Positions 2,897 through 7,918 of a DNA stretch of 7,918 nucleotides are shown here, piece after piece. The stretch's first letter is position 1; each line of letters opens with the position of its first letter. This DNA comes from Gammaproteobacteria bacterium. Its GTDB lineage: Bacteria > Pseudomonadota > Gammaproteobacteria > Arenicellales > JAOTYS01. The translations under genes were made by a program, and so were the position numbers. A model generated the notes under the pieces. The model was not told the origin of the DNA. It did not search any database and worked only from the letters and a program-made list of their open reading frames with translations. The stretch covers positions 1 to 7,918 of the forward strand of contig JAOTYS010000214.1 of NCBI GenBank assembly GCA_029861795.1, in the 5' to 3' direction.

Positions 2897-4069
2897 ATGC
2901 TGCCATTCGAGAAAAGCGAATACCTTGAACGAGTCAACAAAGTTAAGAAGAGCATGACCGAAAATGGGATTGATGTGTTGCTATCCACTAATCCCGCAAA
3001 CATATGCTATCTGACAGGTTACGACGGTTGGTCGTTTTATGTTCACCAATTGGTTGTGATTTCCGTGGATCATGACCATCCAATATGGATTGGCCGAGGT
3101 ATGGACGCTAACGCGGCACGCGTAACAACCTATCTAGATGACAACAACATCCATGGGTATGCCGATCACTATGTGCAGTCCACAGAACGTCACCCCATGG
3201 ATTACGTCGCCGATCTAATAAAGGAAAAGGGGTGGGACCGCAAAACCATCGGCGTAGAAATGGATACATACTACTTTACCGCTGCCTGCTATGTTGCTCT
3301 ACAACGGAATCTTCCGAATGCCGATTTCAAAGACTCCACGACTTTAGTGAATTGGGTACGCGTCATTAAATCTCCGCAGGAGATTGAATTCATGAAACGT
3401 GCGGCGCGAATTATAGAAAAAGTCATGCAAACCGCAATGGATGCCATCAACCCCGGCGTAAGACAATGCGACGCGGTTGCGGCAATCTATCAAGCTCAAA
3501 TCAGCGGAAGCGGCGAATACGGCGGCGACTACACCGCGTTCTGCCCGATGCTACCAACAGGGAAAGGCACCTCTACTCCGCACCTCACCTGGACCGACGA
3601 GCCTTTTGTCAACGGCGAAGCAACTGTTCTGGAACTGGGTGGCTGTTATAAGCGATATCATTGCCCAATGGCACGTACCGTACACCTTGGGACCCCGCCC
3701 AAAGCGCTTTCTGACACTGCCAATGTGGTGGTCGAAGGCCTGAATAATGCACTCATGGCCGCAAAACCAGGGGTGACCTGTGAAGAAGTTGAAGCAACTT
3801 GGCGCCGGACGATCGACAAATACGGCTTAAAGAAAGAGTCGCGTATTGGCTACTCCACTGGGCTTAACTATCCGCCGGACTGGGGCGAGAGCACCTTGAG
3901 CTTACGCCCCGGAGACAAGACCGTGCTACAGCCCAATATGACCATTCATATGATTCCTGGGATCTGGATGGACGACTGGGGCATAGAAATCAGCGAGTGC
4001 TTTCAGGTCACCGAGAGCGGCTCAAAGACCTTCGCCAACTTCCCCCAGGGGTTGCTGGTAAAGGAATAG
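2897..4069 (+). CDS. doeA: Ectoine hydrolase DoeA/EutD family protein (M24 fold)
   Basis: A protein of 390 residues with the creatinase/M24 'pita-bread' plan: an N-terminal domain (about 1-155) and a catalytic-fold domain (about 160-380). The N-terminal segment YLTGYDGWSFYVHQ (38-51) is characteristic of DoeA/EutD, which opens the ectoine ring to N-acetyl-diaminobutyrate in the cytoplasm. The M24 metal ligands are not kept. VLELGG (244-249) has Glu246 where peptidases have Asp; CPMART (256-261) lacks the second Asp; GYSTGL (318-323) has Tyr in place of the ligand His; IPGIW (353-357) and IEISE (363-367) lack the two Glu. This fits DoeA/EutD, described as working without metal through a glutamate that I believe corresponds to Glu246. 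A true Xaa-Pro peptidase is therefore unlikely. AGGAG (2886-2890) six bases before the ATG supports the start. No doeB deacetylase, regulator or ectoine transporter adjoins it. A DoeA-like enzyme for a related cyclic compound remains possible. Confidence 0.8.
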   Translation: MLPFEKSEYLERVNKVKKSMTENGIDVLLSTNPANICYLTGYDGWSFYVHQLVVISVDHDHPIWIGRGMDANAARVTTYLDDNNIHGYADHYVQSTERHPMDYVADLIKEKGWDRKTIGVEMDTYYFTAACYVALQRNLPNADFKDSTTLVNWVRVIKSPQEIEFMKRAARIIEKVMQTAMDAINPGVRQCDAVAAIYQAQISGSGEYGGDYTAFCPMLPTGKGTSTPHLTWTDEPFVNGEATVLELGGCYKRYHCPMARTVHLGTPPKALSDTANVVVEGLNNALMAAKPGVTCEEVEATWRRTIDKYGLKKESRIGYSTGLNYPPDWGESTLSLRPGDKTVLQPNMTIHMIPGIWMDDWGIEISECFQVTESGSKTFANFPQGLLVKE

Positions 4070-4113
4070 CTCAGGTGTTTTGCTCTGTCCTCGCCGTTTT
4101 GCACCTTGCATAG

Positions 4114-4151
4114 GGAAAGGCCACGGCGGAAAAAATCCGCGTGACCTTTCC
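4114..4151. terminator. Strong hairpin between convergent genes
   Basis: GGAAAGG (4114-4120) pairs with CCTTTCC (4145-4151). The stem continues through CACG (4122-4125) with CGTG (4140-4143), and CGGA (4127-4130) with TCCG (4136-4139). In all there are 15 pairs with one mismatch, one bulged G and a five-A loop. It begins 44 bases after the stop of the DoeA-like gene and is convergent with the EF-hand gene. Neither side has a clear T-run, so it may act as a two-way barrier or an RNA 3'-end stabiliser rather than a textbook terminator. Confidence 0.55.
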
Positions 4152-4152
4152 A

Positions 4153-4176
4153 GACTTACTGGTAGGGGTGTAAGTC
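4153..4176. terminator. Second hairpin abutting the first
   Basis: GACTTAC (4153-4159) and GTAAGTC (4170-4176) form a perfect seven-pair stem with a ten-base loop, one base after the preceding hairpin and 34 bases from the stop of the minus-strand EF-hand gene. It probably serves the EF-hand transcript's 3' end, but no T-run follows. Confidence 0.4.
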
Positions 4177-4210
4177 GCTGCTAAAGACGGAAAACGTGCA
4201 GGTCAGGCTC

Positions 4211-4441
4211 CTAGCCCTTCACAAAAGCCTCGTACTCCTCGATGCTAATTGCACCGTTTTGATCAGCATCAACGATTCCAAACTGATCGCTTAATCCCTG
4301 GTGGCCACCCGCCTCAGCGGCGCTAATCATTCCGTCCTGATCCGCATCCAGGTCACCAAACGCTGGCATGTCTTGCGCGGTGCAAGAAAGTGCGAATAGG
4401 GCGGACGTAAGACCGCCGGCAAAAGTTGCGAAACGTCTCAT
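4211..4441 (-). CDS. Small exported EF-hand calcium-binding protein
   Basis: A 76-residue protein with an N-terminal signal sequence and two EF-hand loops. Residues 1-22 have the basic MRRF start, a hydrophobic core (FAGGLTSALFAL) and then SCTAQ. Cys20 could be lipidated, but Ala at -3 and Leu at -2 make a poor lipobox; signal peptidase I cleavage after Ala22 is the alternative. Loop 1 is DADQDGMISAAE (32-43) and loop 2 is DADQNGAISIEE (58-69). Both carry every canonical calcium ligand position, including Gly at 6, Ile at 8 and Glu at 12. Mature protein is essentially one EF-hand pair, acidic, in the periplasm or on the envelope. A strong ribosome binding site, GAGGAG (4448-4453), sits six bases before the ATG. 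A sigma-54 promoter match lies at 4517-4533. It follows glrR on the same strand after 254 bases. The role is unknown; calcium binding or buffering is inferred from the loops. Confidence 0.85.
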   Translation of the reverse strand: MRRFATFAGGLTSALFALSCTAQDMPAFGDLDADQDGMISAAEAGGHQGLSDQFGIVDADQNGAISIEEYEAFVKG

Positions 4442-4516
4442 GAAGCACTCCTCTCAGCAAAAGTTTCCGCTTCCTGCAATGAATTGCCGTCCTTGGCCAG
4501 TTACCAATAGGAAATA

Positions 4517-4533
4517 AGCAACTCTTGTGCCAA
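4517..4533 (-). promoter_or_regulatory. Sigma-54 (-24/-12) promoter of the EF-hand gene
   Basis: On the minus strand TTGGCAC (4527-4533) is followed, after exactly five bases, by TTGCT (4517-4521). This matches the sigma-54 consensus TGGCAC-N5-TTGC[AT] at every defined position in the -24 and -12 elements, with the GG and GC at the required spacing. Transcription would begin near 4506, giving a 65-nucleotide leader before the ATG at 4441. I found no other match of this quality in the window. It needs an enhancer-binding activator; GlrR, encoded next door, is the obvious candidate, by inference. Confidence 0.72.
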
Positions 4534-4625
4534 CTTTGACCGAACGACGAGAAATCAGCGGTATTAGCGAGAAAGCCAGCAAATTACTTTGAGAAAAACA
4601 CTGTTTAACCGGCTACGACCCTTGT

Positions 4626-4665
4626 TGACGGACTACCACCGTCGCTGACGGACTACCACTGTCGC
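4626..4665. repeat. Tandem 20-bp dyad repeat, candidate activator enhancer
   Basis: Two copies of a 20-base unit (4626-4645 and 4646-4665) differ at one position. Each begins TGACGGACTACCAC. Within copy 1, GACGG and CCGTC form a 17-base dyad with a seven-base spacer; copy 2 has CTGTC in the right arm. At the junction, minus-strand CCGTC-AGC-GACGG is a further perfect palindrome. The block lies about 120-160 bases before the predicted sigma-54 start, the usual distance for enhancer sites, and the 20-base period puts both copies on nearly the same DNA face. It also lies 30 bases after the glrR stop, so a role in the glrR 3' end is an alternative. Copy 2 extends into TGTC-N10-TACA (4660-4677), one base off the TGTC-N10-GACA motif reported for enterobacterial GlrR. 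Confidence 0.6.
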
Positions 4666-4695
4666 ACATCACTTACACTAATGAGGTTAACTCCG

Positions 4696-6084
4696 CTAAC
4701 TACTTGAATCCCTTACAGTTACTTCGTCGCGATCTGACGACAGCGCACGCCGTTTAAACGCAGCAGGGTTTAGCTGGGATCGCCGCAATAGCTTATAGAA
4801 GTCAGTGCGGTTACGCTTGGCTAAGCGGGCCGCACGCGCCACGTTGCCACTGGTCATTCTGAGTAACCGTGTTAAGTATTCCCTGGTAAATTTATCCCTC
4901 GCCTCGGCATAAGATAGAAACTCGTTCGCGTCGTTGCCTAGAGCGTGCTCTACAGTGTGCACACTGATAACCCTGGTCGGTGAAAGCACTACATTTTGCT
5001 CCACCACGTTGTATAAATGCCGAACATTGCCGCGCCACGACGCAGCTACCAGCATATCCATGGCCTCCGGCGTATAGGTCTTTGCGGGCTCATTTCGCTT
5101 TTCCGCCAAGCGAGTCAAGAAATGAGTAACCAGCAACGGTATGTCCTCGCGTCGTTCGGCGAGCGGGGGCATATGCAGACTCACGACATTCAGTCGATAG
5201 AACAAATCTTCACGAAACTTGCCTTGTGCGATAGCGTTTCGCAAATCGCAATTTGTCGCAGAAATCAGACGTACGTCTATCGGTGTCGCCTTGGTGCTGC
5301 CCACAGATCTTATCTCTCCTTCTTGTAGCGTTCGCAGCAACTTTATCTGCAATGCAGTCGGCATATCGCCGATCTCATCCAACAACAATGTGCCACCATC
5401 AGCAGCCTGAAACAGGCCCCGGTGACTACGCATAGCATTAGTAAAAGCGCCGCGTTCATGACCGAATAACTCGGACTCAAGCAGATGCTCAGGAATAGCG
5501 CTACAGTTGATTGCAATGAACTCGCGGTCGCCACGAGAGCTTGCGTTATGAATCGCACGCGCAAGGAGCTCCTTACCGGTGCCGCTCTCGCCAGTTATCA
5601 GAACACTCGCATCGGATTGCGAGACCTTATAGGCGCTGGCCAGGACATCATCCATTAGCGCGCTGCAACTGATGATTTCATGCCGCGACATTTTGTTTAC
5701 GTATTCAGGGGCGGAGTTTTTGAGTGCCTTGGCCACCTTTGTTTGAAGTACCTCTTTGTCTACTGGCTTCGTTAGAAAGCCGACAGCACCCCTTTGGGTC
5801 GCATCGACAGCGTCAGGTATGGTGCCGTGGGCGGTAATAATTAGGATAGGTAGTCCAGGACGTTTCTTATGAATCTCATCCAGCAAATGCAGGCCGTCCA
5901 TCTCGTCCATCCGCAAATCAGTAATCACGGTCTGCGGATGGAACGTATCAAGAACACTGAGTGCAGCGGCGCCACTCTCAACGCCTTTGACTTCGTGGCC
6001 AAATGCCCGCAGGCGCAATCCCAATAGCCTCAGGAGGCTGGGATCATCGTCTACCAACAAAACTCGTCCAGTTTGCTCTGTCAT
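4696..6084 (-). CDS. glrR: Sigma-54-dependent response regulator GlrR (QseF)
   Basis: A 462-residue NtrC-type activator with three domains. The receiver domain (about 1-120) has the acidic VDDDP (11-15), phospho-acceptor Asp56 in TDLRMDEMDG and Lys106 in LTKP. The AAA+ domain (about 135-370) has Walker A GESGTGKE (165-172), the sigma-54 contact loop GAFTNA (212-217), Walker B LLLDE (233-237), arginine fingers in FREDLFYRLN (290-299) and WRGNVRHLYN (350-359). A Fis-type helix-turn-helix lies at about 414-435 (NVARAARLAKRNRTDFYKLL). The receiver closely resembles enterobacterial GlrR, including LLRLLGLRL and HGTIPDAV. Phosphorylated GlrR drives sigma-54 promoters (glmY in enterobacteria). The ATG at 6084 is preferred over a TTG at 6093 because GlrR starts there. 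The gene lies 18 bases after the lipoprotein gene and so is co-transcribed with glrK. The GAFTNA loop, with Asn for the usual Gly, is unusual. Confidence 0.93.
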   Translation of the reverse strand: MTEQTGRVLLVDDDPSLLRLLGLRLRAFGHEVKGVESGAAALSVLDTFHPQTVITDLRMDEMDGLHLLDEIHKKRPGLPILIITAHGTIPDAVDATQRGAVGFLTKPVDKEVLQTKVAKALKNSAPEYVNKMSRHEIISCSALMDDVLASAYKVSQSDASVLITGESGTGKELLARAIHNASSRGDREFIAINCSAIPEHLLESELFGHERGAFTNAMRSHRGLFQAADGGTLLLDEIGDMPTALQIKLLRTLQEGEIRSVGSTKATPIDVRLISATNCDLRNAIAQGKFREDLFYRLNVVSLHMPPLAERREDIPLLVTHFLTRLAEKRNEPAKTYTPEAMDMLVAASWRGNVRHLYNVVEQNVVLSPTRVISVHTVEHALGNDANEFLSYAEARDKFTREYLTRLLRMTSGNVARAARLAKRNRTDFYKLLRRSQLNPAAFKRRALSSDRDEVTVRDSSS

Positions 6085-6102
6085 CACGATCAAATCTCGC
6101 TT

Positions 6103-6666
6103 CTAGGGTTTGTCTACGGAACGCTCAATGTGTGTCAGGTCTCTGATCTTTTGGCGGAGGTCCGCCAATTCGGTGTTCATTCTGTCAAGCTTCGTCTCCA
6201 GTTGTTGATTACTTGTTACCGCTGCGCTTGACTGGACTTCCAGGTCTCGCAGGCACAATTTGTACTGTCCCAGGGTAGTCTGGGCCTCGATAGCCTTCTC
6301 GATTTCGTTCAGAGAAATGACGACAAAATCGTGTGCGGAGGGCGACAACCGCGTGGGGCCGCTGAGCGAATCGAGCAAGACAGCACGCGCGGTCTCGTTG
6401 TCCTCCCTGGTCGCACGAGGTCCGCTCGAAATTATGGCGAGGCGAATCTGGTTAGAGATTGATGGACTCGAGGAGTATCTAATTGCAGCCTCTTTTCGCA
6501 TTAGGCTTAGATCTGCCTCGGTAATCTCAGAAATCTGTCGTTTCAAAGCAAGATACGAGACCGTGCTTTTCATATCCACGGTGACTCCAGACGAAGGCAA
6601 CTGAGCGCAACCCGCCTGAATAACAGCGACAATCAGTAGCAAGAAGCAAATGTTCCTATGAATCAT
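6103..6666 (-). CDS. qseG: QseG-like outer-membrane lipoprotein of the GlrK/GlrR system
   Basis: A 187-residue predicted lipoprotein. The signal is MIHRNICFLLLIVAVI followed by the lipobox QAGC with Cys20, after which the mature part begins AQLPSSG. The middle is helical and polar. The C-terminus is a strong coiled-coil candidate (about 145-185: LETKLDRMNTELADLRQKIR). Sequence similarity to enterobacterial QseG/YfhG is not obvious by eye; the call rests on position between glrK and glrR, size and lipoprotein nature. QseG is an outer-membrane lipoprotein that contacts the kinase GlrK/QseE. The frame is open to an ATG at 6753 inside glrK, but the ATG at 6666 gives a clean signal peptide. That ATG overlaps the glrK stop by 11 bases, and no Shine-Dalgarno is visible, so translational coupling is likely. 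Confidence 0.72.
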   Translation of the reverse strand: MIHRNICFLLLIVAVIQAGCAQLPSSGVTVDMKSTVSYLALKRQISEITEADLSLMRKEAAIRYSSSPSISNQIRLAIISSGPRATREDNETARAVLLDSLSGPTRLSPSAHDFVVISLNEIEKAIEAQTTLGQYKLCLRDLEVQSSAAVTSNQQLETKLDRMNTELADLRQKIRDLTHIERSVDKP

Positions 6667-7918
6667 TGGCGACAACGGTCGAAGGCAAAAGAATTCGAAA
6701 TCGAGCACCAACCGGAGCCTCGACAACGCCGACGGTTCCACCATGGAAGGCAATGCAATCGCGGGTAACGGACAGCCCTAAACCAGTGCCAGCCACATAG
6801 GAATCCTGCGGATCTCCTCCCTTATAAAAGGGTTCGAATATGAAGTTCTGATCTCTCTCCGAAACACCTGGGCCTTGATCCGCAATATCGATTAGTACCC
6901 CATCTTCCGCACACCTTGCCTCTACCTTGATTTCTGAACCTCGTGGTGCAAACTTGATCGCGTTGGACAGCAGGTTTTTTAACGCTCGAACGATCTTCTC
7001 TCGATCCGCAGCCAGGATAAGTTCTTCGCCACAAACATTCAGCGACAGTCGCTTGCTTCTGAGCAGAAGCCTATGGTGCTGCTTGATCTCGTCGATAATT
7101 GAACTCAGGCCAAAGTGCGTCATCTCCAGATTTCCAAGCTCCCGACGCGCACCAAAGTCCAGTATATTTTCGATCAATCCCTGGAGTTCCAAACTGTTGT
7201 CGCGAAGGAGTTGGGCCACCTCTACTTGCGTCACATTGAGGCTTCCCAATGTTCCGTCGACAAGTAGCTCCGTCCCCTCTCGGATGCTCGCTAGCGGGGT
7301 CTTGAGCTCATGCGACATGTGCTGGAGAAACTTGCTTTTTGCACGTTCTAGCTCATCCAGACGTCTGCGCAGCCAATCAAGCTCATGACCTAGGGCGGCA
7401 AACTCTGGGGGGCCGGTGATTGTGACCGCCTGATCAAAGTTGCCTTCACCGAGCTGTCGTATGGCACGGCCAACCTGGCGTATAGGTCGAACGATCAAGG
7501 CTGTAAAAAATAGCACCAGCACGATCGTGCCCAGAATTAGTGCAGCCGCCTGCAAGCCAAGCCCATAGCGCGTTTTCCGTGACGCATCTTGAAGGGATTC
7601 GAGCTCGGTATGAATCATCCTCCAACTTTCAGATACCACAGTGCTCGCTACAAACTTGAGACCAGCGAGGGTTTCTAGCGCTTTTTCCGATTCAAACGAT
7701 TTCGGCGCATACCTGCTGAGATCAAAGAACACATTGGCACTATCCCGTTGGATCCGCGCCAAATACTCATCCATCGGCAGATCCTGATCCAGGCTACGCA
7801 ACACCTTGATATTGTTGAGTAATCGAAGTTGTTTCTCTTCATATATTTGCAGCAGGGACGGATCCTCCAGTACTTGGTACTGCCGCGCGTTGCGCTCCAT
7901 CTCAGTTAGCTGTTCAGC
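6656..7918 (-). CDS. glrK: Sensor histidine kinase GlrK (QseE), 5' end outside window
   Basis: The C-terminal 420 residues of a membrane sensor kinase; the frame remains open at the window edge, so the first membrane helix and start are missing. Numbering from the first visible residue: a helical periplasmic sensor segment (about 1-115), a membrane helix (about 120-143, LQAAALILGTIVLVLFFTAL), a HAMP linker beginning VRPIRQVGRAIRQLGEGNF, the dimerisation/phospho-acceptor domain with FLQHMSHELKTP (phosphorylated His203), and an ATP-binding domain with N-box NLLSNAIKF, G1 DQGPG, F-box FEPF and G2 GTGLGLS. All catalytic motifs are intact. It should autophosphorylate in response to an envelope signal and pass phosphate to Asp56 of GlrR. 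The short periplasmic helical bundle, motif spacing and gene order match GlrK/QseE. The 3' end overlaps the lipoprotein gene by 11 bases. The signal is not predictable here. Confidence 0.9.
   Translation of the reverse strand, partial: AEQLTEMERNARQYQVLEDPSLLQIYEEKQLRLLNNIKVLRSLDQDLPMDEYLARIQRDSANVFFDLSRYAPKSFESEKALETLAGLKFVASTVVSESWRMIHTELESLQDASRKTRYGLGLQAAALILGTIVLVLFFTALIVRPIRQVGRAIRQLGEGNFDQAVTITGPPEFAALGHELDWLRRRLDELERAKSKFLQHMSHELKTPLASIREGTELLVDGTLGSLNVTQVEVAQLLRDNSLELQGLIENILDFGARRELGNLEMTHFGLSSIIDEIKQHHRLLLRSKRLSLNVCGEELILAADREKIVRALKNLLSNAIKFAPRGSEIKVEARCAEDGVLIDIADQGPGVSERDQNFIFEPFYKGGDPQDSYVAGTGLGLSVTRDCIAFHGGTVGVVEAPVGARFRILLPSTVVANDS

Follow-up and report, generated by a model that had tools for sequence, protein, structure and literature searches.

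In the 7918-nt stretch of DNA analysed here (the window), a GlrR-dependent sigma-54 promoter very probably drives the expression of a small exported EF-hand protein. The window carries a sigma-54 promoter, paired GlrR-type sites, an EF-hand pair and a signal-peptide-like start, and the same wiring was observed in many GlrR loci. From these elements we infer that in the window GlrR would bind its sites, the gene would be transcribed, and its product would be exported and bind calcium.

The glrK-qseG-glrR module

The genes concerned lie on the minus strand in the order glrK (running off the edge), a lipoprotein gene in the qseG position, glrR, a 254-nt intergenic stretch, and the EF-hand gene. 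The histidine kinase in the GlrK position (6656–7918, leaving the window) possesses HAMP, HisKA and HATPase_c domains, and the lipoprotein following it (6103–6663, minus strand) contains the lipobox IQAGC. The glrK-qseG-glrR gene order is thus present with a weak QseG match, as the lipoprotein gave no match in Pfam and showed only weak similarity to the proteins that occupy this slot in other loci (E no better than 7.6e-07, in a small database).

The GlrR-type sigma-54 activator (receiver, AAA+ and HTH) occupies 4696–6093 of the minus strand, for which 6084 is probably the true ATG, and the corresponding database protein is P0002 of 462 residues. Pfam detected both the receiver and the sigma-54 AAA+ domain and did not detect the HTH. 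The C-terminus of this protein aligns with that of E. coli GlrR (NRTDFYKLLRR vs. NRTEFYKLLSR), and its recognition-helix stretch is close to the E. coli counterpart. The best match among 108 NCBIfam models was PRK15115 GlrR with 580 bits; its cut-off of 763 was exceeded by only 1 of the 99 GlrR matches in the even draw of genomes described below. Other activators scored at most 422 bits against this model in 8 genomes.

The sigma-54 contact loop of the window GlrR (5434–5451) reads GAFTNA and therefore falls outside the GAFTGA pattern, which was read in 41 of the 42 loci legible to it (out of 50) and in 109 of 119 homologues among the matches listed, 8 of the 119 being illegible to the pattern. 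The nearest homologue (P0003, 77%) reads GAFTSA, and a GAFTDA loop was found in L002, L115, L122 and L167. For NorR, Asn or Asp at this loop position leads to a fully constitutive protein and Ser to signal-free activity, as described in the consulted part of PMC2941729. By analogy, the GAFTNA-type GlrR of the window may be partly signal-independent. RpoN was found in 26 of 26 GlrR genomes tested, a set of our choosing that lies outside the window's own genome. The convergent neighbour of this cluster (2897–4069) resembles an ectoine hydrolase (DoeA) gene, scoring 547.9 bits where the cut-off is 613.

The sigma-54 promoter

A sigma-54 (−24/−12) promoter, TTGGCACAAGAGTTGCT, was located at 4517–4533 of the minus strand, in the 254-nt stretch that separates the end of glrR (4696) from the 76-residue frame on the same strand. 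It reads TTGGCAC-AAGAG-TTGCT, a near-perfect sigma-54 element in which GG (4531/4530) and GC (4519/4518) are placed 10 bases apart with exact −24/−12 spacing. The pattern TGGCAC-N5-TTGC has a single occurrence in the window, where 0.01 is expected, and was present in 3 of 200 shuffles. By a score using our own weights on the sigma-54 consensus, a site at least as good as TTGGCACAAGAGTTGCT appeared on the right strand of the gap in a fraction of 0.0002 of 5000 dinucleotide shuffles. A simple consensus scan detected no sigma-70-like promoter in 4050–4760.

The predicted +1 is 4506, giving a 65-nt leader, and the ATG of the EF-hand gene (4441), preceded by AGAGGAG, is 92 nt from the first base of the promoter. 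In the enterobacterial loci L003, L004, L011 and L013, the Rfam GlmY match starts 28 nt from the first base of the motif, which would give a +1 at 4505 when transferred to the window. An earlier sequence-only reading had claimed a near-consensus sigma-54 promoter with exact spacing, and this observation is confirmed. Its distance of 65–90 bases before the EF-hand start was about right, and the GlrK/GlrR neighbours that it named are found as the GlrK-position kinase and the GlrR-type activator, with the QseG-position lipoprotein between them.

Paired GlrR-type sites

QseF binds three TGTN12ACA sites at glmY, as stated in the consulted part of PMC6075780. Two putative sites of this type were found upstream of the EF-hand promoter on the minus strand, 65 bp apart. 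The distal site, TGTCGTCAGATCGCGACG (4725–4742, centre about −227), sits within the 3′ end of glrR and has one mismatch to TGTN12ACA, and the proximal site, TGTAAGTGATGTGCGACA (4660–4677, centre about −162), is an exact TGTN12ACA; each has one mismatch to TGTC-N10-GACA. When the whole 7918-nt window was ranked by a matrix built from 31 distinct exact sites, the window being excluded from them, TGTCGTCAGATCGCGACG was the best match (13.2 bits) and TGTAAGTGATGTGCGACA the second (9.9 bits), with a third match at 507–490 close behind (9.6 bits). The distance of the two sites from the promoter is approximately 50 bp greater than in most relatives. At least two such sites within 300 nt appeared in 0.0016 of shuffles, and a pair spaced by 60–72 appeared in 0 of 5000.

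The TGTC-N10-GACA pattern was evaluated on 43 promoters, including the window and three glmY promoters, which were hand-picked by their sigma-54 site before the search for GlrR sites. With up to one mismatch it was found upstream of 41 of these 43 sigma-54 sites, a set that contains the near-duplicates L188/L192, L195/L204 and L117/L118 and omits some scored sites, such as the two in L152 and those lying ahead of glrK in L185, L208, L142, L180 and L125. This gave 68 sites, whereas shuffles preserving base content only averaged 3.9. A scan of the gap between TGTC and GACA yielded 18 sites at the next-best gap of 8 compared with the 68 at gap 10, and, for exact matches, gap 10 gave 33 and no other gap from 4 to 17 gave more than 2. 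Two or more sites were present in 23 of the 42 other promoters, 17 of which have two sites 63–68 bp apart.

An imperfect 20-bp tandem repeat (19/20), GCGACAGTGGTAGTCCGTCA / GCGACGGTGGTAGTCCGTCA, was also seen at 4626–4665 of the minus strand, whose first copy begins inside the proximal GlrR-type site. An automated repeat search of 4430–4710 reported neither direct nor inverted repeats despite the presence of this one. It was dropped as an activator site because the TGTC-N10-GACA sites fitted better, and it may add GlrR half-sites.

The EF-hand protein

The gene at 4211–4441 of the minus strand encodes a 76-residue protein that begins like a signal peptide and contains two EF-hands (PF13202, E = 3.1e-10), and which was examined by its open reading frame, two alignments (A1 and A2) and AlphaFold2. 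A signal peptide is predicted for about residues 1–22 (4376–4441), as read by eye from the sequence. In EF loop 1, DADQDGMISAAE (4313–4348), the calcium-ligand positions 1, 3, 5 and 12 are filled, and EF loop 2, DADQNGAISIEE (4235–4270), is placed 26 residues past loop 1. This spacing was found in 55 of 58 EF-hand rows, the exceptions being L115 and two genes of L136. D32 and E43 of loop 1 and D58 and E69 of loop 2 are invariant in alignment A2, which is gap-free from loop 1 to loop 2 in 19 of its 20 sequences; the window protein aligns without a gap over this range with 18 of the 19 others.

The AlphaFold2 model consists of two EF-hands with a mean pLDDT of 73, rising to 83–89 over residues 31–76. 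In a Foldseek search with this model, the best solved folds were EhCaBP1 and calmodulins at E = 0.05 or weaker, and nothing was obtained at E = 0.001 or better. The paired canonical 12-residue calcium loops identify the product as an EF-hand protein by sequence and predicted structure. No close homologue was obtained for it, as the homologue search returned the protein itself alone. Membership of the lanmodulin family (22.8 bits vs. a cut-off of 135) and of the XopAW family (21.8 bits vs. 120) was rejected; in both cases the EF-hand stretch alone matches. In some relatives (L195, L204 and L035), an EF-hand pair is fused to what looks like a BON domain.

EF-hand genes beside glrKR in other genomes

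A first collection of 80 loci was kept from a scan with the window's GlrR. Of the 50 best GlrR loci, 27 contain a small EF-hand gene, compared with 0 of the 30 lower-ranked ones, which share 38–47% identity and were read by us as other activators. Twenty-five of the 27 genes lie upstream of glrK in the same orientation, and the others are downstream of glrR (L035) or divergent (L036). A GlrR-type site lies within 500 nt in 27 of the 27 loci, and both this site and a sigma-54 site pass in 18. The remaining 9, from Paraglaciecola, Neptuniibacter and Glaciecola, have no GG/GC site of the set score. No EF-hand gene is present alongside the GlrR relatives at about 61% (L001 and L197).

An even draw of 369 genomes was then taken from the class of Alteromonas flava (G003). 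GlrR was detected in 95 of these genomes with 99 matches at E = 1e-150 or better, and all 99 loci were examined, which include L033 of the first collection and some loci cut by contig ends. Greedy ORF calling hid many short genes, and the genes were re-read from each promoter instead. Counting a gene required a signal-like start together with two loops that fit a set pattern, which excluded genes with one degenerate loop such as that of L161. By these criteria an EF-hand pair gene adjoins glrKR in 26 of the 99 loci (27 genes) and 73 loci have no adjacent pair. Of the 27 genes, 17 follow glrR, which is the arrangement of the window, 6 are divergent, and 4 are co-directional and upstream of glrK.

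The promoter elements were tested by requiring a GG/GC sigma-54 site within 280 nt of the gene and, no more than 320 nt upstream of this sigma-54 site, a GlrR-type site. Both precede the EF-hand gene in 22 of the 26 loci, compared with 18 of 479 other ORFs of the even-draw loci, which are mechanical frames of at least 100 residues located away from the edges of glrKR. When a sigma-54 score of at least 22 was required in this test, 19 of the 27 adjacent EF-hand genes passed vs. 5 of the 479 other ORFs. The sequence-only reading had proposed looking for the −24/−12 element together with the EF-hand gene beside glrR in relatives, and this combination was found in 22 of the 26 even-draw loci and in only 18 of the 27 EF-hand loci of the first collection. 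As the window's own EF-hand gene gave no close homologue, this comparison covers other EF-hand loci. The link to GlrR, which that reading had only inferred, is now well supported at the sequence level by two GlrR-type sites at a spacing common among relatives, the proximal one being an exact TGTN12ACA, by the EF-hand genes that repeatedly adjoin glrKR with the same elements, and by RpoN in all 26 GlrR genomes chosen for testing.

Several other genes were observed near glrR or behind promoter elements of this kind. Downstream of it in L002 and L122, a sigma-54 site is placed ahead of a gene that by eye is OpgG-like (periplasmic glucan synthesis), which has two GlrR-type sites as well in L122, and L017 has an OpgH-like gene downstream of glrR. 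Genes resembling ybgC of the tol-pal cluster were seen by eye downstream of glrR or the EF-hand gene in L117, L132, L140, L149, L190 and L205, and a tolQ-like gene also in L190. In L211, a GlrR-site and sigma-54 hit precedes an exported-looking Lys/His/Asp-repeat protein (MGDHKDHK), which is perhaps metal-binding. Strong sigma-54 and GlrR-type sites with no evident gene near were found after glrR in L116, L123, L137, L184, L190, L196 and L121, which possibly represent new small RNAs. Rfam detected no RNA at the glrR-downstream promoters lacking an evident gene in these seven loci or in L124 and L130.

Genome-wide distribution of the promoter pattern

A composite pattern consisting of a GlrR site, 60–90 bases and a sigma-54 site was searched over the 369 even-draw genomes. 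It gave 40 hits in 35 genomes, compared with 4 hits for the reversed-pattern control, and 27 of the 35 genomes have GlrR (Fisher p = 2e-11). Among the 30 loci examined, covering 31 of the 40 hits, an EF-hand gene comes next in 8 (L209, L215, L218, L219, L220, L227, L232 and L237), namely 8 of 23 loci from GlrR genomes vs. 0 of 7 from others. The 9 further hits include L132 with an EF-hand gene and a site in G341 located 66 bases ahead of an EF-hand profile match.

EF-hand family genes away from glrR were also inspected, 20 from GlrR genomes and 20 from genomes counted as GlrR-less, both being selections from the better profile matches. Both elements were present in 7 of the former 20 and in 4 of the latter 20. 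Two of the genomes behind these 4 genes, G214 and G131, contain GlrR pieces (model residues 192–444 and 188–444; 375 and 369 bits), and hence the GlrR-less genomes are no clean negative control. No GlrR piece was seen in G072 and G246, though their EF-hand genes have both elements.

At E = 1e-8 the EF-hand profile, which also picks up other EF-hand proteins, matched 61 of 95 GlrR genomes vs. 57 of 274 others. Without the 15 training genomes, the numbers were 46 of 80 vs. 57 of 274 at this cut-off (p = 1e-9), 22 of 80 vs. 26 of 274 at 1e-15 (p = 1e-4), and 7 of 80 vs. 10 of 274 at 1e-18 (p = 0.07), indicating that the co-occurrence of profile and GlrR fades as the cut-off tightens.

Comparison with known systems

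The window resembles the GlrKR (QseEF)-sigma-54-glmY system of E. coli in its three-gene module, its TGTN12ACA-type upstream sites (consulted part of PMC6075780) and its −24/−12 promoter. It differs in that the product is an EF-hand protein, not a small RNA, and in that the target is downstream of glrR. Rfam GlmY was present in 4 of 4 enterobacterial loci tested (L003, L004, L011 and L013, the last being the E. coli control) and in 0 of 10 EF-hand loci tested (L018, L025, L033, L040, L041, L048, L006, L030, L132 and L199). GlmY occupies the slot upstream of glrK in the E. coli, Salmonella, Kluyvera and Mixta loci, and the EF-hand gene takes this place in loci of Amphritea, Paraglaciecola, Alteromonas, Neptuniibacter, Glaciecola and Saccharospirillum. 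Unlike the window's target, E. coli rpoE encodes a sigma factor. The rpoE gene is not known to adjoin glrR. The described sigma-54 targets of GlrKR/QseEF in E. coli K-12 are glmY and rpoE according to the consulted part of PMC6075780, and the rpoE promoter under QseF is similar to that of the window as an envelope-stress output of the same regulator with similar sites.

Two bacterial EF-hand proteins likewise have a signal peptide, comparable to the signal-peptide-like start of the window protein. EfhP of Pseudomonas aeruginosa is predicted to be periplasmic, and has two EF-hands and calcium binding (consulted part of PMC9132961; the word RpoN occurs 0 times in its text). CaBP of Caulobacter vibrioides is localised to the periplasm and differs by its three EF-hands and SigV-dependent promoter (consulted part of PMC13171946; GlrR and sigma54 occur 0 times and RpoN once in its text).

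Proposed mechanism and alternative explanations

We propose that GlrK, with the QseG-like lipoprotein, would sense the envelope state and phosphorylate GlrR. Phosphorylated GlrR would occupy the sites at about −227 and −162 and loop to the sigma-54 polymerase at 4533–4517, which would start the EF-hand transcript near 4506. The product would be exported and then bind calcium outside the cytoplasm through its two canonical EF-hands, for which the candidate roles are a buffer, an envelope stabiliser or a sensor feedback. As a hypothesis, the EF-hand protein may buffer or sense periplasmic calcium as part of the envelope response.

A rather unlikely extension of this scheme is a feedback similar to that of CpxP, in which the exported EF-hand protein would bind periplasmic GlrK or QseG and tune the sensor by calcium. 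The gene would then be an output and at the same time belong to the sensory module, which is compatible with a GlrR-dependent promoter. The adjacency of the EF-hand gene to glrKR in 26 of 99 even-draw loci with three arrangements speaks for such a feedback, which strong induction by its own regulator would also suit. However, a general effector also fits with the 7 of 20 chosen genes that have both elements away from glrR, and adjacency is not obligatory, since by our criteria 73 of the 99 loci lack an EF-hand pair next to glrKR.

It is improbable that the sigma-54 promoter is real and serves another activator, with the two GlrR-type sites being coincidental. Such a promoter is usable by any sigma-54 activator, and the sites have one mismatch each, are farther upstream than in most relatives, and include one of 9.9 bits that barely exceeds the third match of 9.6. 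Nevertheless, the two best matrix matches of the window fall here at the spacing of 17 of 23 other multi-site promoters, and the same arrangement recurs beside glrR. A promoter mainly making a GlmY-like small RNA, with the short EF-hand frame being incidental, is more improbable still. GlmY is the known GlrR target, and in relatives several of the sigma-54 sites downstream of glrR are not closely followed by any evident gene, but Rfam at its gathering cut-offs gave no RNA in the window, GlmY (RF00128) included, and the frame has two canonical EF loops, a signal-like start, a ribosome site and the gap-free alignment with 18 of 19 other A2 sequences. A chance resemblance with a non-functional promoter and read-through from glrR is hardly credible given the rarity of the promoter and the site pair in shuffles and their recurrence across other genomes, even though the gene follows glrR after 254 nt in the same orientation, with no terminator-like site detected in the gap by a simple scan.

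Implications of the proposed EF-hand output of GlrKR

In one open-access library, no literature was found that links GlrR or QseF with EF-hands or QseF with calcium-binding, or that joins EF-hand with RpoN, two-component system and enhancer-binding. An EF-hand gene is among the RpoN-affected genes of a Bradyrhizobium study (consulted part of PMC13207237), and a paper on sigma factors of Acidithiobacillia names GlrR/GlrK, with neither 'calcium' nor 'EF-hand' in its text (consulted part of PMC12194929). The module and the promoter class are known, and the recurrent exported EF-hand output is undescribed as far as this library goes. The sequence-only reading had called the control of such a protein a new output, which holds in the sense that it is undescribed, but it is recurrent and not peculiar to one organism.

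From sequence comparison, a GlrR-type regulator appears to control a small calcium-binding protein destined for export, and to do so recurrently within one bacterial class. We tentatively entertain the broader idea, more doubtful than not, that GlrKR is at its root a calcium and envelope system, whose widespread output outside enterobacteria is an exported EF-hand family feeding calcium status to GlrK/QseG, and that GlmY took over the same promoter slot later, in the enterobacteria. If the GlrR-dependent control proposed here is true, it would provide a testable calcium branch of a known envelope-stress pathway and a candidate effector or ligand for the GlrK sensor, and a clear case in which one promoter slot holds either a protein or a regulatory RNA, depending on the lineage.
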